Program-made: the position numbers and the translations under genes
Notes under the pieces: generated by a model
The model's input: only the letters and a program-made list of their open reading frames with translations
Told to the model about the DNA's origin: nothing
Database searches by the model: none
From: Bdellovibrio bacteriovorus str. Tiberius
Lineage (GTDB): Bacteria > Bdellovibrionota > Bdellovibrionia > Bdellovibrionales > Bdellovibrionaceae
NCBI RefSeq assembly: GCF_000317895.1
Contig: NC_019567.1
Location: 1,178,001 to 1,242,000 of the forward strand
DNA: 64,000 nucleotides
Direction of reading: 5' to 3'
Part shown: positions 30,353 through 58,162 of the stretch, in pieces
Numbering within the stretch: the first letter of the stretch is position 1
Layout: each line of letters opens with the position of its first letter

Positions 30353-30375
30353 TTGTGCAGGTGGGGTGCGTTGGT

Positions 30376-32031
30376 ATGTCGTTTAATTATCAAAAAAACA
30401 AAGAACATTCGAGCGACAGTTTTTGGACGTCGTATTCGGATTTATTCTTGGGTTTAAGCACGATCTTCCTTCTTTTGTATGTCACATCCAGTTTGCGTAC
30501 GGGCACCGATGCCTTGCGCGGGCAGGTGGAAAACCAGAAGCTTTCCATGAAAGTGGAAGAACTGGAAAGCCAGTTGAAGATGTACGAGAACGTGAAGAAT
30601 GAGTATCTGGCCGGACAGGCACCTAAAGATGAGGTGCAGGAGTATGAAGAGCTTATGGACAAGCTGACCTTGCTTCAGGAAGACGCCAAGACTGAAAAAG
30701 AGCGTCTGATCCAGGAAGCCCGTGAAAACGGGGACAAAGTCAAAGCTCTGAACAAGTACCAGCAAATGGTGCGCAACGTTCTTAATGCCAACAAGATGGC
30801 CAAGTCCAAATTGATCAATCGTGATGATCTGATCAAAGAGCAGGATGTGGAAATCGAAACCCAGGAAACCGAGATTGCTGATCTGAATAAAGACATTCAG
30901 AACAAAAAGCAGCTGATCGCTCAGGGTGAACAAAAGATCGCAGTCACACAGGCGCAGTTGCAAAAGCGTCTGACTGAACTGCGTGTGGCTTACAAAAACA
31001 ACAAACTGTCAAAACAACTGTTTGAACAGAAGATGGCTCAGGCCCGAGCTGACGGCAACCAAAAGGTGGCTCAGCTGAATCAGGTCAATGCCCAGTATCA
31101 GATGCAACTGAACCAGGCCAATGTGCAATTGGGTCAGGTGCAGGGTGAACTTTCCAAAACTCAAGGCATGCTGGCGCAGAAGGAAGACGAAGCCACTCAT
31201 CTGGCAGGCGCTCTGTCCCGCACCAAGGCTGAAACTGGCGCGCGTATCGCGGGTCTGGAATCAGGTCTGGCAGATGAAAAAGCCCGTGGTGCCAAACGTG
31301 TAGCATCTTTGCAGGAAGGTTTTGCGGAAGAAAAAGCAGCGATGGCTGCTGGCTTCGGTAAAGAGAAAGCGGCCATGGCGGCAGGCTATGGCAAAGAAAA
31401 AGCCGCCTTGCAGGGCGCTTTGAGCGACACGCAAGGACAGCTGGCGAAAGCAAGAGCAGAAATCGAAGCGCGTAAATCCGTGGCGGGTGAAATTCAGAAG
31501 GGTTTCGCCAAAGCCGGTATCAAAGCTGATATCGACCTGCAGACGGGCGATGTGGTTCTGGATTTCGGTCAGGCTTACTTTGACAGTGACTCGGACCGTC
31601 TGAAGCACGAGATGAAAGGTGTCCTGGAAAAAGCGATGCCGATTTATTCCCGGTCTTTGTTCGGCAATCCGAAAGTGTCTGACAAAATTTCCGCGGTGGA
31701 AATCATCGGTTTTGCCTCACCAACGTATCAGGGGCGCTTCGTCGACCCACACAGCTCCAAGCCGGCAGACAAAGCCGCTTTGAAGTACAACATGGATTTA
31801 AGTTACCGTCGTGCGAACTCCATCTTCAGTTACATGCTGGATGAAGGGAACATGAGATTTGAGCATCAGCGCGAGCTCTTGGCCCTTATGAAGGTTTCCG
31901 GACGAAGCTTCCTGGAAGTCATGAAGGTGCAAAATCGCAATATCGCCACAGCAGCCGAGTTCTGCAAGCAGAACGACTGTAAAAAGGCGCAGCGGGTAAT
32001 CATCCGCTTTAACATGGATCAAAAGAAATAA
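30376..32031 (+). CDS. MotB-like stator protein with giant coiled coil and OmpA-like C-terminus
   Basis: 551 residues. The N-terminus matches MotB-type stator subunits: SFWTSYSDLFLGLSTIFLLLYV, one membrane helix with Asp22 in the position of the ion-carrying aspartate of MotB. Residues about 45-370 form one long coiled coil (Lys/Glu/Gln-rich heptads, with a tandem EKAAMAAGFGK / EKAAMAAGYGK repeat near 320-345). The last 170 residues are OmpA/MotB-like: DVVLDFGQAYFDSDSDRLK and YNMDLSYRRANSIFSYML (the N-x2-LS-x2-RA signature), though the usual TD of the peptidoglycan site is replaced by AS. Usual MotB proteins are about 300 residues; the excess is the coiled coil. The start at ATG 30376 is preceded by GGTGGGG. 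First gene of the motor operon. Confidence 0.82.
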   Translation: MSFNYQKNKEHSSDSFWTSYSDLFLGLSTIFLLLYVTSSLRTGTDALRGQVENQKLSMKVEELESQLKMYENVKNEYLAGQAPKDEVQEYEELMDKLTLLQEDAKTEKERLIQEARENGDKVKALNKYQQMVRNVLNANKMAKSKLINRDDLIKEQDVEIETQETEIADLNKDIQNKKQLIAQGEQKIAVTQAQLQKRLTELRVAYKNNKLSKQLFEQKMAQARADGNQKVAQLNQVNAQYQMQLNQANVQLGQVQGELSKTQGMLAQKEDEATHLAGALSRTKAETGARIAGLESGLADEKARGAKRVASLQEGFAEEKAAMAAGFGKEKAAMAAGYGKEKAALQGALSDTQGQLAKARAEIEARKSVAGEIQKGFAKAGIKADIDLQTGDVVLDFGQAYFDSDSDRLKHEMKGVLEKAMPIYSRSLFGNPKVSDKISAVEIIGFASPTYQGRFVDPHSSKPADKAALKYNMDLSYRRANSIFSYMLDEGNMRFEHQRELLALMKVSGRSFLEVMKVQNRNIATAAEFCKQNDCKKAQRVIIRFNMDQKK

Positions 32032-47628: not shown

Positions 47629-47757
47629 TTTCCTTGTGTTGATCTAGGATTTTTCTAGAGTTTTAAAAGGTTTAGGCATTCGAGGTCGAAAAAGTTCTGA
47701 GGACTTAAAGGTCCCAAGACATCTAGACCCATAGATTCTGCAGCTGTTGAGGTGCTA

Positions 47758-48066
47758 GTGACATCTGAGAAAAAAACCTACAATTTCCTAATTGCGGGTG
47801 TCCCTTACAAATTAAAAACCTCTCACGATGATGCGACCGTTGAGGAGCTCATCGAATTTGTAAATTCCAGAATGAATCAAGCCATGGCTGTCACCAAGAA
47901 TGGCTCTTATCAGAATGCGGCCGTACTCACGGCGATGAATCTTGCCGAAGAACTTATTCTATTGAAACGCAAAGCCCACCGCGAGTTGGAAAAACTTGAA
48001 GAAAAGGCATTGCAGCTTTCAATGGATCTGGAAAATTCCAAGAACAACAAGGTTTTGAACAACTGA
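47758..48066 (+). CDS. zapA: Cell division protein ZapA
   Basis: 102 residues, typical length. Binds FtsZ and bundles its filaments at the septum. The ZapA fold is visible as YNFLIAGVPYKLKTSHDDATVEELIEFVNSRMNQA, followed by a C-terminal coiled coil (LAEELILLKRKAHRELEKLEEKALQL). GTG 47758 is the likely start, with GAGG five to six bases upstream. Followed after 26 bases by the 5-formyl-THF cyclo-ligase gene; this pairing is conserved in many bacteria, often with the 6S RNA gene between them, which is absent here. Confidence 0.87.
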   Translation: MTSEKKTYNFLIAGVPYKLKTSHDDATVEELIEFVNSRMNQAMAVTKNGSYQNAAVLTAMNLAEELILLKRKAHRELEKLEEKALQLSMDLENSKNNKVLNN

Positions 48067-48092
48067 CTTTGTTTTGATTTCTTGGAGTGTCC

Positions 48093-48656
48093 ATGCCAGT
48101 TTCCTGGAGCTCTAAAAAGGACTGCCGGTCCTTCTTTAAATCTCTTTGTGCCCAAGAGTTTGCACAAGGTCTAGTTCAACAACAACAGCAGCTCGACGCC
48201 CATCTGCGTGATTTTATGAAGTCACAGACGGGGGTTTGGGGAGCCTACCGGGCCCTGCCCGAAGAGGCGCAGGTCGAAGAGGTGTTTCACATCCTTCACC
48301 TGACATGGGCCTTCCCCAAAATGCGCGAGGGTCTTTTGGAATTCTATGAGACCCGGGATTTTGATCTCGGGCCCTACGGAGTGCGGGAACCAAAACCCGG
48401 CTCTTTCCAAAGATCCCTGGCCGAAATGTCCGGTCTGCTGGTTCCCGGTTTGGTTTTTAATAAGAATGGCAATCGCCTCGGTAAAGGAAAAGGGTTTTAC
48501 GATAAAACCTTAGAGTCCTTCCCGGGGGTGAAAGTCGGAATTGGCTTTGATTTTCAGATCACTGCCGATCCGCTTCCCACCGAGCCTCATGATGTGAAAA
48601 TGGATTTCCTCATCACAGAATCAGGACTGGTCGATTGCAAGAAGCATCAGGAGTAA
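48093..48656 (+). CDS. fau: 5-formyltetrahydrofolate cyclo-ligase
   Basis: 187 residues. Converts 5-formyl-THF to 5,10-methenyl-THF using ATP. Visible family features are SSKKDCRSFFKSL at the N-terminus, GAYRALPEEAQVE in the middle, and the C-terminal LLVPGLVFNKNGNRLGKGKGFYDKTLESFPGVKVGIGFDFQ, which holds the G-x-G-KG-FYD nucleotide-binding signature. ATG 48093 has GGAG five bases upstream. Sits between zapA and rny in a tightly packed operon. Confidence 0.92.
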   Translation: MPVSWSSKKDCRSFFKSLCAQEFAQGLVQQQQQLDAHLRDFMKSQTGVWGAYRALPEEAQVEEVFHILHLTWAFPKMREGLLEFYETRDFDLGPYGVREPKPGSFQRSLAEMSGLLVPGLVFNKNGNRLGKGKGFYDKTLESFPGVKVGIGFDFQITADPLPTEPHDVKMDFLITESGLVDCKKHQE

Positions 48657-48663
48657 ATGAATC

Positions 48664-50229
48664 ATGGAGATCGTAATCAGCGCCATTATCGGCCTGCTCA
48701 TCGGCGGAACAGTCGTCTTCGTTATCAAACGTCTGCAGGACAACAACAAAAAGAAATCCGCACGTTTTGAAGCAGAACGCATTGTCAACAAAGCCAACTC
48801 TGAAGCTGCCAAGCTGAAGAAGGAATCTGAAAACAAAGCCAAGGATTTCGAAGCCCGCGCCCGCAAAAACGTCGAGCAGGACATTCACAAGCAAAAATCC
48901 ACAGTGAAAAACAAAGAATCCCAGCTTGAGCGCCGTTTGAAAGAGGTCGAAGACCAGTTCAAACAAAAGATGGAAGAAAACGAGCGTTATCTGAACTCTT
49001 TGAAAGACCGCGAAGAAAAAATCGCGATCTCTGAAAACCGCATCAAGGATCTTGAGAAAAAAGGCGAGACTCACATCGGTGAGCTGAAACAGAAGCTTGA
49101 GGCCGTGGCAGCAATGAGCCAGGACGAAGCACGCCGCCAGTTGCTGACCGCTTTGGAAGACGAAGCGAAACAGGAAGCAGCGAAAAAGATCGCTCAGATC
49201 GAAGAAGAGGCAAACAAAGAATCCGAGAAAAAAGCCAAGCGCATTCTGGCAACAGCTTTGTCCCGTTTTGCTTCCGAGTACACTTCTGAAAGAACTGTCA
49301 GCGTTCTGGCTCTGCCAAACGACGAGATGAAGGGTAAAATCATCGGCCGTGAAGGCCGTAACATCCGCACGCTGGAAGCACACTGCGGTGTGGATCTGAT
49401 CGTTGATGACACTCCAGAGGCGGTGGTTATCTCCGGTTTCGATCCGGTTCGCCGTGAGCTGGCTCGTCGTACCATCGAAAAACTGATGGAAGACGGTCGT
49501 GTTCACCCGGCACGTATTGAAGAAGTCGCTGAAAAACAGCGCAACGAACTGATGAAGTCCATGAAAGAGGAAGGCGAGCGCCACGTGATGGAGCTGGGCA
49601 TTCCGAACATGCACCCTGAACTGGTGAAAATCATCGGTGGTTTGAAATACCGCTCTTACCAGGGGCAAAATGCCTTGAATCAGTCATTGGAAGTGGCGAC
49701 GATCGCCGGTCTTCTGGCGGCTGAACTGGGTGTCAGTGTGAAGCTGGCAAGACGAGCGGGGCTTTTGCACAATATCGGTAAAGCGATCGATCACACCGTG
49801 GAAGGCAGCTATGCTTTCGTGGGTGCTGAAGCCGCTAAGAAATACAATGAATCCGAAGACGTTTGCCACGCGATCCGCGCTCATGATGAAGAGGAAAAAC
49901 CTCACTCTATCCTGGCTTGGATTGTTCATGCGGCTTACACTCTTTCCAGCTCCCGTCCGGGCGCACGTCGTCCGCAGATGGATACATTCATCCATCGTCT
50001 GGAAGACCTGGAAAGCATCGGCAATAGCTTCGACGGTGTTTTGAAAACATTGGCGCTGCAAGCAGGTAAAGACATCCGTGTGTTGGTTGAATCCAGCCGT
50101 GTGACGGATGATCAGGCGGTGATGTTGTCCCGTGATATCGCTCGTAAGATCGAACGCGAGATGCCTCAGGCCGGTCAGGTGAAAGTCACAGTGGTTCGTG
50201 AAACCCGTTCTGTGGAGCATGCAAGATGA
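48664..50229 (+). CDS. rny: Ribonuclease Y with altered HD motif (HN)
   Basis: 521 residues, the normal RNase Y length. N-terminal membrane helix ([18 protein letters not shown]), a long coiled coil to about residue 200, KH domain ([26 protein letters not shown]) and the HD domain. RNase Y starts mRNA decay at the membrane. In the metal-binding HD motif the sequence reads [15 protein letters not shown]: His369 followed by Asn370 (codon AAT, 49771-49773) instead of the usual Asp. The rest of the domain, including the [10 protein letters not shown] segment, looks intact. Overlaps tyrS by 4 bases. Confidence 0.93.
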
Positions 50230-51443
50230 TGAGCCCGCAGGAGCAGCTGGAAAGAATCAAATTCGGCACCGCCGACTTCATCAACGACGAGGACATGCTT
50301 AAAAAACTTAAGCGCTCGATCGAGACGAAGAAACCTTTGAATATCAAACTGGGTGCAGATCCAACACGTCCGGACATTCACTTGGGTCACACCGTTGTGA
50401 TCAACAAACTGAAAACCTTCCAGGATCTGGGGCACAAAGTGTCCTTCCTGATCGGGGATTTCACGGCGATGATCGGGGATCCATCCGGTAAAAACAGCAC
50501 GCGTCCGATGCTGACTCGCGAAGAGATCGAAGAAAACGGCCGCTCTTACGCAAAGCAAATCTTTAAGATCCTGGATCCGGATAAAACCGAGATCGTGTAC
50601 AACTCCAGCTGGATCATGAAAATGACTCCGGCGGAATTCATCACCATGACTTCCAAATACACCGTGGCTCAGTTGCTTGAACGCGAGGATTTCACCAAAC
50701 GCTACCGATCGGGCACTCCGATCGGCATTCACGAGTTCATTTATCCGCTGACTCAAGGTTACGATTCCGTGGCTTTGAAAACCGACGTCGAGTTGGGTGG
50801 TACGGATCAGAAGTTCAACCTTCTGGTGGGTCGTGCGATGCAGGCCGCTTACGGAATGGAAGCACAGTGCGTGCTGACCATGCCGATTCTTGAAGGTATC
50901 GATGGCGTGAACAAGATGTCCAAATCTTTGGATAACTATATTTCTGTCGTGGATACACCGAAAGACATGTTCGGAAAAACCATGCGAATTTCCGACGAGC
51001 TGATGTACCGCTGGTACGAGCTTTTGACGGATGTTGGTGCTGCTGGTTTGAATCAGCTGCGTGCGGATGTGACTGAAGGCCGCAAACACCCGCGCACAGT
51101 GAAAGTGGAACTTGCAAAATTCCTTATCAAACGTTTCCATTCCCAGGCTGAAGCGCAAGCGGCGGAAGACGAGTTCAACCGCATCTTCGTGGAAAAAGGC
51201 CTGCCGGATGAAGTGCCTGACTTTGAAGTCACTGCTGAAGACCAAGTGGGTCTGGCGGCGTTGATGGTGAAAGCTCAGCTGGCGGCTTCCAACAGTGAAG
51301 CCGGCCGTTTGATCCAGGGTGGTGGGGTGCAGATTGATGGCGAGAAGGTTTCGGACCCTCGTTTGAAAATCGACCTGAAATCCGGCGCAAGCTTCGTGCT
51401 GAAAGCCGGTAAAAAGAAATTCGTTAAGATTGTTGTTAAGTAG
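50226..51443 (+). CDS. tyrS: Tyrosyl-tRNA synthetase
   Basis: 405 residues. Class I enzyme charging tRNA-Tyr. The HIGH motif appears as HLGH in [16 protein letters not shown] and the KMSKS motif as KMSKSLDNY. The tyrosine site has [16 protein letters not shown]-terminal S4-like RNA-binding domain ends the protein ([20 protein letters not shown]). The form is the TyrZ-like branch rather than the E. coli TyrS branch. Starts at ATG 50226, overlapping the rny stop codon (a second ATG follows at 50229), so the two are translationally coupled. Confidence 0.96.
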
Positions 51444-51468: not shown

Positions 51469-52281
51469 ATGAAAATCAAATTTCTTCCGCAGAATATCGA
51501 AGTTGAGGGCACTCCTGACAAGAGCCTTTTGCAGATTGCAACGGAGAACAAACTGGAAATCCGATCCATCTGCAAGGGTGTTCCTTCCTGTGCGGAGTGC
51601 CGTGTGCGCATCTCTGAAGGGGATTCGAACATCCTTCCCCCGACGAAAGCCGAGCTGAACCTTATCGGGACCAGCCATTTCATCGATGGTCGTCGCTTAA
51701 GTTGCCAGGTTCGTTGTTATGGGGATGTGACAGTGGACCTGACTGAACAGGTTCAAAACAGCGAAAACAAGACCAAGAAAATCAGAGGCTTCCGCGCCAA
51801 CAAACAGATCGAATCCAAAGCCGTGAACGACACCATGCTTTTGTCGGAAAAGCCGGAAGACCGTCCACAGCATCAGCAGGCGGATCGTGGCGGTGAGGCC
51901 CTTGAGGCTTCCACTGAGGAAGTTTCTGCAGAAGCCGGGAATCAAGCTCAGCCGCAATCCCAGCCAAAACAGCAACAGCCGCAACAAAAACAGCAACAGC
52001 GCCAGCAGCAGAACCGCCAACAGCAGCAAAAACAACAGGGTGGTGGCGGCGGCAATCGCCAACAGCAGGGCCAGCAGAAGCAAAACCAGCAAAAACAGGG
52101 TCAGCAGAAGCAAGGTCAGCCTAAGCAGCAGCAAAATCAAAAGCAGGCTCAAGGCGGCGGTCAGCAAAACCGCAATCAAAATCAGAATCAAAATCGCGGT
52201 CAGAATCAAAACAAACCGCAAAATCAGAATCCGCAAGCTCAACAGCAGCAGCCAAAGCAGGACCGTAAGGATAACAAATAA
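51469..52281 (+). CDS. 2Fe-2S ferredoxin with Q/N-rich prion-like tail
   Basis: 270 residues. Residues 1-95 are a ferredoxin domain with cluster ligands Cys35, Cys41, Cys44 and Cys79 (C-x5-C-x2-C-x34-C, as ICKGVPSCAEC and LSCQVRC). After a charged linker (100-160) the last 110 residues are almost only Gln, Asn, Lys, Arg, Pro and Gly (for example QQKQQQRQQQNRQQQQKQQ, NRNQNQNQNRGQNQ). Bacterial ferredoxins of this type end near residue 100. The tail resembles prion-like or RNA-granule low-complexity domains. Last gene of the zapA-tyrS operon, 25 bases after tyrS. Confidence 0.87.
   Translation: MKIKFLPQNIEVEGTPDKSLLQIATENKLEIRSICKGVPSCAECRVRISEGDSNILPPTKAELNLIGTSHFIDGRRLSCQVRCYGDVTVDLTEQVQNSENKTKKIRGFRANKQIESKAVNDTMLLSEKPEDRPQHQQADRGGEALEASTEEVSAEAGNQAQPQSQPKQQQPQQKQQQRQQQNRQQQQKQQGGGGGNRQQQGQQKQNQQKQGQQKQGQPKQQQNQKQAQGGGQQNRNQNQNQNRGQNQNKPQNQNPQAQQQQPKQDRKDNK
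51937..52278 (+). repeat. Low-complexity Q/N-coding repeat tract
   Basis: Degenerate CAG/CAA/AAC triplets encode the ferredoxin tail. Units vary (CAGCAGAAC, CAAAACCAG, CAGAATCAA), so this is not a perfect tandem array. Such tracts can expand or contract by slippage. Confidence 0.8.
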
Positions 52282-52344
52282 TCCGAGCGGTCTGGACCTG
52301 TGGGCAGTTTCCTGTAAACAGATCTTTACCGATAAGTTTCACGG

Positions 52345-53154
52345 ATGTCACACAAGATCACTTACCGGGAACGGGGACAAGGGCCACTGCTGATACTTCT
52401 TCATGGTTATGGAGGAAGTGTTCACCATTGGGAATCCATCGCGGATACTCTGTCGGCTCACTACCGTGTGATTGTTCCCAATCTTAGCCACATCTATATG
52501 AGCAGTGATAAGCTGTTCTTCACCGTGCAAATCGAAGCGGTCGCCAAGTTCATCCGTGAAAACTTCCCGGGGGAAAAGGTCCGTCTTGCAGGTTTAAGCT
52601 ATGGTGGTGCTTTGTCCTGGGGGCTGGCGACCCAGCATCCGGATCTGGTTGAAAAGACTGTTTTGATCAATCCAATGGTGACCGATCCCATTCGGCACTT
52701 CCTGCCAAAAGAACTGAAATTCTTCTTTGCCATTCCGCTCAACTTGAAAAGTGTCTATGTGATGCTTTCAACCCCGATGGGCAGGGCTTTCCTGAAGCGT
52801 TCAGCGCAGATCTTCCGCGATGAACGCAGTGAAGGAAACGTGTCAGTGGAAACACTGAAAGGCCGCAAACTGCAGTTTGTCGCGCACATGATTCATCACT
52901 TTGCCTGGATCCTGCGTTCTGAAGACTGGGCTTACTGGCACACGCGTTTGTATTCGTACCGTGGTGAATGTCGGTTGATCTTTGATGAAAAGGATCTGCT
53001 TTTTGATCAGGCGGCCTATCGTCATTTTGCCAATCACATCGGTTGCGAGGATGTCGTGATTTTGACGGGTGCAGGTCACCTGGCGATTAAAACGCAGCCC
53101 GAAGAAATTTCGCGTCTCATACGTGAGTTTTTAAGCGAATCCGTTGCAGCTTAA
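52345..53154 (+). CDS. Alpha/beta-fold hydrolase
   Basis: 269 residues. HGYGGSVHHWE holds the oxyanion-hole motif, GLSYGG the nucleophilic serine (Ser near residue 90), FDEKDLLFD the acid and GAGHLAIKTQPEE the histidine. A cap region lies between about 120 and 200. Specificity cannot be assigned; esterase or C-C hydrolase activities are possible. It starts 63 bases after the ferredoxin gene with no strong ribosome site (ACGG only). Confidence 0.87.
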   Translation: MSHKITYRERGQGPLLILLHGYGGSVHHWESIADTLSAHYRVIVPNLSHIYMSSDKLFFTVQIEAVAKFIRENFPGEKVRLAGLSYGGALSWGLATQHPDLVEKTVLINPMVTDPIRHFLPKELKFFFAIPLNLKSVYVMLSTPMGRAFLKRSAQIFRDERSEGNVSVETLKGRKLQFVAHMIHHFAWILRSEDWAYWHTRLYSYRGECRLIFDEKDLLFDQAAYRHFANHIGCEDVVILTGAGHLAIKTQPEEISRLIREFLSESVAA

Positions 53155-56431: not shown

Positions 56432-58000
56432 TTAGGCAACGACTTTGTCTTTTTGTTTTGTCTCAAAATCCTGGATTTTGTCGTTCAGGAAGTTTTGGGC
56501 GCGGTATTTATCCAGATCCTGGATTTCGGCCTTCAAAATATGCAGGTTGGACACGCCTTGATTCTGCAGGCGCTGCTTTTGCACATTAAAGAATTTGGAT
56601 CCCCGGGGAGTGTAAAGGACGTATTTATTGTTCTTGGGAAGGTAAATATAAACGTTGAATTCCACGGCCACGTCACCAGCCAGCTCGTTCAAATGGATGC
56701 TGGCCATTTCTTCGTCGGCGGATTCTCCAAAAGTGGTTTTTACATCGTGGCGAGGGAAGAAGGCCATGGCGACCTCGTTGCCGTCGTGCACGGATTTACG
56801 CAGGAATTCGGCTTGCTCCAGGGCCCAGTCCTCGAACGGCACCTCTTTGATTTTCAGCTGCATGGATTCGCTGTCTTCAATGTTTTCACCAGCGTCCTTA
56901 AGGAATCGGAACAGACGTTCGCGCACCTTCCCCAGGAAAATATCATCCAGCTTGCGGTCTTTCCCCATGGCCGTGATCAAATAACCGGAAAAACGGGTGG
57001 ACTCGATCACGATGCAGGAAATGTTGGTGGAATCTTCGATGGCCTCGGATTCTGCAAAGTTGGTTTGAATGCAGGATTTTTCCAAAGCGTCTTTGGTTCC
57101 GCGCAGGATGATTGAATCCTGTTTCGATGCCAGGGGATTGTTTTCAATTTGCTCTGGCGTCGGACGGTCTTTGCGGCGCACTTTGCTGGGCATCGGTGCC
57201 CAGCCTGAACCGGCTTTGTTGCCTGCATTCTGGCGCATCAGCATCGCATTAAGAGTTTCATCACTTTCATCTGCGCCATTTCCCATGCTGCTGCCTGCAC
57301 CGGGACCTTGTTGTGCCCAGTTGGGACCAAGGCCGTTGTTCTGAGCTGAGGGCTGCATCAGCCCCAGATTCAGTTCTGAATTTGTGCCCGGCATATAGCC
57401 GATATTGGATTGCAGGGGATTGCCGGTGGCAGTGGCGTTGTTACCCGCAGCACCCATTCCGGCAAACTGATTGCCTCCGTCATCACCGGCAAGCAGCTGT
57501 TGCAGAATGCTTTGGGCGCTTTGTGCTCCCGAGGATCCGCCTTCGCCTTTGATGGCGATCACACTGCCGTCTTCGGCAGTGCCGGTGCCATTGCGCTGAA
57601 ACGGATTGGTGACGCCTTTGGATTGCTGGTCTTTATAGAATTTGTTAACGGTTCTTTCCACTGCGGGACCGGTCACCGGGGGATACAAAAGGTATTCGCT
57701 GTTACTGGTGTTCAGCAGATTGAAGCTGGCGGCCGAGTTTTCTTCGGCGAAAACAATCACGCAGCAGGGAAAAGCCTGCGCCAGAATTTTCGGCAGATTT
57801 CGCACTTTGCGATTGGGATGATCAATGCTGACCATCACGAACTGAGGCTGCTCCTGAACCAGAAAAATCAGAGCTTCTTTTAGGTTCGTCGTTGACTTGA
57901 TGGTCCAGTCGCGGTTCTTCAAAAAACCTTCGACGGTTCCCAGGCCTCCGGGCTTGGATTTGATAATGAGGAGCTTTTTTTTGATCGAGTCTTGATCCAT
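56432..58000 (-). CDS. Degenerate receiver-domain protein with Asn/Gly-rich linker
   Basis: 522 residues. Residues 1-125 have the response-regulator receiver pattern, with Asp60 at the end of strand 3 (VMVSIDHPN), but the acidic pair of strand 1 is missing (LLIIKSKPGG) and the conserved lysine is replaced (YLLYPPV, Tyr106). It is probably not phosphorylated in the normal way. A roughly 180-residue Gly/Asn/Gln-rich linker follows. The C-terminal half (ISCIVIESTRFSGYLITAMG; FNVYIYLPKNNKYVLYTPRGSKF) ends in a segment resembling the small module often found in front of HD-GYP or GGDEF domains. ATG 58000 has AAGGA eight bases upstream. Function unknown. Confidence 0.65.
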   Translation of the reverse strand: MDQDSIKKKLLIIKSKPGGLGTVEGFLKNRDWTIKSTTNLKEALIFLVQEQPQFVMVSIDHPNRKVRNLPKILAQAFPCCVIVFAEENSAASFNLLNTSNSEYLLYPPVTGPAVERTVNKFYKDQQSKGVTNPFQRNGTGTAEDGSVIAIKGEGGSSGAQSAQSILQQLLAGDDGGNQFAGMGAAGNNATATGNPLQSNIGYMPGTNSELNLGLMQPSAQNNGLGPNWAQQGPGAGSSMGNGADESDETLNAMLMRQNAGNKAGSGWAPMPSKVRRKDRPTPEQIENNPLASKQDSIILRGTKDALEKSCIQTNFAESEAIEDSTNISCIVIESTRFSGYLITAMGKDRKLDDIFLGKVRERLFRFLKDAGENIEDSESMQLKIKEVPFEDWALEQAEFLRKSVHDGNEVAMAFFPRHDVKTTFGESADEEMASIHLNELAGDVAVEFNVYIYLPKNNKYVLYTPRGSKFFNVQKQRLQNQGVSNLHILKAEIQDLDKYRAQNFLNDKIQDFETKQKDKVVA

Positions 58001-58162
58001 TCCCCACGTCCTTTGAAACGTTCTCATATTTCTCTTAACGGATTGTTGTCGTAAACAAACAAGTGGCAGAGATTAAACCCGGGATAGATTACCGAGGCTT
58101 AACAGAACACCGGCCCTTGGACCATGGTCGTATCGCACATCCGTACTGTCGAAATCGTGGGC

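Follow-up and report, generated by a model that had tools for sequence, protein, structure and literature searches.

In the 64,000-nucleotide stretch of the Bdellovibrio bacteriovorus str. Tiberius genome that was analysed (hereafter the window), a ferredoxin gene was found that is tied by gene order to the gene of RNase Y (rny) over the whole class Bdellovibrionia, with its product often bearing a C-terminal tail of the type found on RNA helicases. The host, a Bdellovibrio-type predator, has a genome consisting of a single contig of 3,988,594 bases. As a tentative interpretation, this ferredoxin may act as an Fe-S accessory associated with RNase Y and possibly take the place of RicT, its tail being a putative RNA-binding element. 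The initial annotation of this gene described a ferredoxin with a prion-like, Q/N-rich tail and a link to RNase Y; the ferredoxin, the Q/N-rich tail and the RNase Y link were borne out, while the prion-like nature of the tail was not. The occurrence of a ferredoxin always beside rny and with a tail of an RNA-handling type hints that Fe-S chemistry and RNA decay are linked in Bdellovibrio. The features of the locus are as follows:

47752..48066, + strand: zapA, the first gene of the conserved string (Pfam ZapA; synteny)
48087..48656, + strand: 5-formyltetrahydrofolate cyclo-ligase gene (fcl), upstream in the string (Pfam 5-FTHF_cyc-lig; synteny)
48664..50229, + strand: rny, RNase Y, the conserved genomic partner (TIGR03319, 609.5 bits against a cut-off of 454; linkage)
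50226..51443, + strand: tyrS, tyrosyl-tRNA synthetase, usually separating rny from the ferredoxin gene (TIGR00234; absent there in 7 loci)
51469-52281, + strand: ferredoxin gene, 270 aa, ATG start
51469..51858, + strand: ferredoxin core and linker, residues 1-130, with Fer2 fold, ligands C35, C41, C44 and C79, an extra C83 and the conserved motif KKIRGFR...AVNDTMLL (Pfam Fer2, order-wide conservation, AlphaFold, Foldseek)
51859..52278, + strand: disordered, basic, Q/N/K/G-rich C-terminal tail, residues 131-270 (composition, low pLDDT, orthologue comparison, substitution pattern)
52345..53154, + strand: alpha/beta hydrolase gene, downstream, conserved mainly within the genus (Pfam Abhydrolase_1; synteny)

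The sole Pfam domain found in the protein was Fer2 (residues 7-82, 30.4 bits against a cut-off of 21), with the cluster ligands spaced as C35-x5-C41-x2-C44-x34-C79, confirming the 2Fe-2S ferredoxin domain proposed initially. Among 134 complete orthologues, C35 and C79 were retained in all, and C41 and C44 in 133 (one X each). The domain had been described as possessing four cysteines, which is accurate for the ligands but slightly incomplete, as a fifth cysteine (C83, 51715-51717), located four residues past the last ligand, is kept in 127 of the 134. The AlphaFold model gave pLDDT values of 83-97 (mostly above 90) for residues 1-100 and of about 43-64 for the rest of the protein. Searching with this predicted model using Foldseek returned 2Fe-2S ferredoxins with TM scores of up to 0.79 by target length, the closest solved folds being FdC, E. 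coli Fdx, adrenodoxin-like proteins and NqrF. The protein is not an ISC ferredoxin according to NCBIfam (TIGR02007, fdx_isc, 32 bits against an equivalog cut-off of 132); it is best assigned to the soluble, adrenodoxin-type [2Fe-2S] ferredoxins. The fold and the C-x5-C-x2-C...C ligand pattern are held in common with adrenodoxin/ISC-type ferredoxins (FdxB 3ah7, E. coli Fdx 1i7h) and with the ferredoxin domains of NqrF and AcsV (phmmer, Foldseek). Unlike these, the Bdellovibrio ferredoxin possesses C83, a conserved motif following the domain, a long basic tail and a fixed adjacency to rny.

A gene-calling artefact or frameshift was ruled out, with orthologues keeping the reading frame and short forms having a clean end upstream of the following gene. 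Two ORFs that overlap the gene in other frames (51887-52393 on the + strand, 51697-52242 on the - strand) were found to be mechanical mirrors of the CAG/CAA codons. A mobile or plasmid origin of the ferredoxin was also rejected, as plasmids gave just weak matches to NqrF. Scanning of the region with Rfam identified no known RNA element at the gathering score, and a promoter scan performed at chance level (four found, 4.2 expected).

The order zapA, fcl, rny, tyrS, ferredoxin and alpha/beta hydrolase in the window agrees with the RNase Y neighbourhood first reported, and the adjacency was found to be very conserved (130 of 133 loci with usable upstream sequence). In 123 of these loci the immediate upstream neighbour of the ferredoxin gene is tyrS, with rny beyond it where the sequence reaches, and in seven it is rny without tyrS; two of the remaining three loci have a larger gap to tyrS and one is broken by a run of N. 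As the ferredoxin gene directly follows rny in the seven loci from which tyrS is gone, rny can be considered its lasting partner. The sister order of the class retains the gene string as well, there interrupted by about 1 kb of inserted sequence. Within the order of Tiberius, the core is encoded by 136 of 141 genomes, including all 103 of those that are at least 90% complete. The tail, whose retention beside rny and tyrS had been suggested as a check, is lacking from about half of the orthologues.

Ferredoxin homologues were also identified in a sister group of the phylum (f12, which we take to be probably Bacteriovoracia), where in the loci read they were not near rny. With an identity of 30-38%, orthology of these homologues is likely rather than proven. 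Those read lacked both an equivalent of C83 at the same place and a basic tail. A different conserved extension was observed on them (L175-L184), of the form W..HWEKD...KKLGGGKRPKPF.

The tail of the Tiberius ferredoxin (140 residues) consists of 41% Q, 11% N, 11% G, 9% K, 6% P, 6% R and 6% D+E, with 1% hydrophobic residues and no aromatic residues; Q and N together account for 52% and K and R for 15%, so that about 21% of the tail is charged when D and E are included. The best 80-residue window of the tail contains 53 Q/N residues. To place this in a genomic background, 20 evenly spaced 20-kb stretches of the Tiberius genome were sampled together with the 64-kb window (about 464 kb, 436 gene calls). 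The ferredoxin was the only gene of this sample with at least 30 Q/N per 80 residues, the runner-up having 27. The Q/N-rich tail noted initially is real, and its Q/N content greatly exceeds what chance would give.

A criterion blind to gene identity was also applied, by which the last 60 residues should contain no more than 12% hydrophobic residues and have a net charge of at least +3 (for the ferredoxin, 0% and +8). Applied to the 864 ORFs of the 464-kb sample with a length of 100 aa or more, it selected two, the ferredoxin and a DEAD-box RNA helicase; it was also satisfied by three of seven DEAD-box proteins examined from the Tiberius genome. In the flanks of the relatives' loci it picked three of 719 ORFs, two being DEAD-box helicases (Pfam) and the third a 198-aa ORF, while 66 of the 134 ferredoxin orthologues possess such a tail. 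Because the blind criterion selects the ferredoxin together with DEAD-box helicases, the ferredoxin tail is considered to belong to the type that RNA helicases bear in these genomes. Bacterial DEAD-box helicases, found by the same scan, likewise have tails that are poor in hydrophobic residues, net positive and of low complexity; the difference is that here the tail is borne by a ferredoxin, and that Q/N replaces R/G or R/S in the genus Bdellovibrio. The connection to RNA handling made in the initial annotation is plausible, and RNA binding by the ferredoxin tail is putative.

The complete orthologues range from 118 to 357 aa, with tails of 0 to 227 residues. Within the genus, eight species are tail-less (ending at 135-137 aa), four carry short extensions of 20-49 residues and the remaining 12 carry 82-179. 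A scan of contigs gave 12 loci, mostly duplicates, among them that of B. bacteriovorus strain kdesi (92% core identity); this genome is apparently identical to L009, which has a tail of 82 residues. The family tree requires a minimum of 14 changes in the presence of the tail and of seven in the Q/N-rich state. Given these changes and the lack of a tail in about half of orthologues, the tail is not essential to the function of the core. Outside the genus, tails are mostly composed of R, K, N, G and S (for example NRNRNRNR, RRRRRGGRG and KKRRRRRRPKPK). Among the 84 tails of at least 30 aa, the last 40 residues were net positive in 78, while only 19 contained at least 35% Q+N; the shared property is therefore a basic disordered C-terminus. 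By composition, Q/N-richness appears to be mainly a genus-level variant, with other families bearing basic R/K/N/G tails. In families f2, f4, f8 and f10 (L071, L075, L076, L101, L106, L114, L116), the basic tail is replaced by a charged, helix-like extension (AE..FMEEE.R..LERIK.RK).

Under the interpretation favoured here, the folded core would carry one electron or sense the redox or iron state, and the basic disordered tail would bind RNA or another polyanion. Such binding could concentrate the core where machinery is bound to RNA, the most likely candidate being RNase Y, for which the ferredoxin of Bdellovibrionia may do the job of RicT. In Bdellovibrio proper, the spacer residues of the tail may have drifted to Q and N, giving it a prion-like look. 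Counting against this interpretation are the absence of the tail from many orthologues and the fact that genes may stay together in a string even if their products do not interact.

The main rival explanation is that the ferredoxin serves as a housekeeping electron donor for RNA-modifying or other redox enzymes (e.g. in radical-SAM tRNA/rRNA modification), with the tail docking on RNA or ribosomes and rny-tyrS being a mere shared operon. The adrenodoxin-like fold, the tRNA synthetase neighbour and the RNA-helicase-type tail all agree with such a role, as does the near-universal core, which persists in genomes as small as 1.2-1.3 Mb that have no tail. Against it, the ferredoxin gene stays beside rny when tyrS leaves, and the Tiberius genome encodes three other small Fer2 proteins; this explanation is considered somewhat less likely than the favoured one. 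A ferredoxin with an RNA-helicase-type tail would be an unusual route for bringing electron transfer to RNA.

The possible relation of the ferredoxin to RicT, suggested as part of the RNase Y-associated interpretation, was examined through the distribution of the latter. The RicT protein of Bacillus has one 4Fe-4S cluster of its own and another held jointly with RicA and RicF, and is part of a stable complex with RNase Y (PMC6751060, PMC10470536). RNase Y is encoded by nearly all genomes of both f12 and the order of Tiberius. RicT (PSP1) was present in about 124 of 129 f12 genomes (counted from the table), compared with five of 141 genomes of the order of Tiberius and one of three of the sister order; PSP1 was not found in the Tiberius genome itself. 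The RicT proteins of f12 keep the six cysteines of the ligand pattern (CxxxxCC...CxxxxCC), and 17 of 24 bear a basic low-complexity tail of the kind found on the ferredoxin, some of them Q/N-rich. This tail was absent from all five Bdellovibrionia RicT proteins read, and two of the five genomes encoding these have a tailed ferredoxin (L102, L091). RicT of f12 (L238, L241, L242, L255 and others) was also observed to often end in long RNRNRNRN repeats, comparable to the tails of Bdellovibrionia ferredoxins such as L117 and L128. A further observation was that Bdellovibrionia RicT proteins (L233-L237), unlike those of f12, have two to three extra cysteines after the known ligands (e.g. CVKC...C), possibly forming an additional metal site.

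On a tree built from rny and tyrS, the presence of RicT requires five changes, and because genomes with RicT branch off early, the pattern is most naturally read as several losses. Some of these losses are nested within a single large clade, and the link between rny and the ferredoxin is also present in the six Bdellovibrionia genomes that retain RicT; replacement is therefore a correlation over about five changes. As this link exists in all Bdellovibrionia read, it is older than the losses of RicT. A Bacillus-type Y-complex was considered and rejected: in addition to the missing PSP1 in Tiberius, Com_YlbF (RicA/RicF) was not found in 10 genomes tested, and so such a complex does not seem to exist here.

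The ferredoxin and RicT are alike in being Fe-S proteins tied to RNase Y, and RicT of f12 has the same type of basic Q/N/R-rich tail. They differ in that the ferredoxin carries only Fer2 and no PSP1 domain, holds a [2Fe-2S] rather than a 4Fe-4S cluster and shares no fold with RicT, which also counts against the favoured interpretation, and in that the ferredoxin is tied to RNase Y by gene order, RicT of Bacillus by biochemistry (PMC10470536). That the rny-linked ferredoxin of Bdellovibrionia replaced RicT as the Fe-S/redox cofactor of RNase Y, bearing the tail that sits on RicT in f12, is viewed as improbable; if true, mRNA decay would be under the control of a dedicated ferredoxin. Why RicT of Bacillus carries Fe-S clusters is not settled, and a class that keeps RNase Y, has lost RicT in most members and has an rny-linked ferredoxin represents a natural experiment on this question.

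A less probable explanation for the tail than docking on RNA is that of a near-neutral, low-complexity expansion without function. The initial annotation proposed that absence or high variability of the tail among close relatives would suggest neutral slippage; such variation was indeed found at the genus level (0 to 179 residues, with eight congeneric species tail-less) and, together with the repeated changes in tail presence on the family tree, agrees with expansion, but slippage as its cause was not supported, as substitutions in the tail are mostly synonymous. L007 and L008 are closely related species whose tails align almost without gaps; comparison of the two identified 30 synonymous and 14 non-synonymous codon differences in the tail, and 32 and 5 in the core. 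Neutral simulations with an equal number of changes gave a maximum of 22 synonymous codons in 2000 runs at any transition bias tried. By the NG86 method, dN and dS were 0.050 and 0.642 for the tail and 0.020 and 0.530 for the core. Glutamine codons of the tail are mixed (35 CAG, 23 CAA), with a longest identical-codon run of three and adjacent Q codons identical no more than expected, and TRF detected only short, weak, imperfect repeats of 6-15 bp. From these repeats, slippage by indels is probably the source of the length variation; as a sufficient explanation of the tail, neutral slippage was rejected on the mixed codons, the purifying substitution pattern and the retained positive charge. 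Such tails are also rare in the genome by the blind criterion, and tail-less genes end cleanly, mostly about 50 nt before the next gene, leaving no room for a tail relic. Expansion without function is thus quite improbable, and the tail is free in length and constrained in residue type.

The least probable explanation is that a prion-like domain brings about joint condensates or aggregates of the ferredoxin and RNase Y, which can be regarded as very improbable since, despite a disordered tail (low pLDDT) that exceeds the yeast-type threshold of 30 Q/N per 80 residues, the 15% K+R, the lack of aromatic stickers, the negative PAPA-type scores of every tail tested and the lack of conservation of Q/N-richness outside the genus all oppose it. 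For the Tiberius tail, low charge combined with a positive PAPA score was not observed, with the best window of PAPA-type scoring at -0.13. Bacteria are known to possess disordered regions rich in Q/N as a class, with about four per proteome and typically sporadic conservation (Harrison 2019, PMC6400439), and the main text of that survey mentions neither ferredoxin nor Bdellovibrio. The ferredoxin tail is similarly Q-rich, predicted to be disordered and sporadically conserved, and differs from these domains in being highly charged and basic. Condensation with RNA through the basic tail is possible, yet would not be prion-like. A note of caution follows, as the Q/N-rich composition in one genome looked prion-like and comparison identified basic charge as the conserved property.

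Two other ORFs of the window were observed to be rich in Q/N. The second most Q/N-rich gene of the sample is a 558-aa ORF (30355-32031) with 27 Q/N per 80 residues and without a Pfam match, and a 531-aa ORF on the minus strand (56432-58027) has a Q/N/G/A-rich middle with 20 Q/N per 80 residues.
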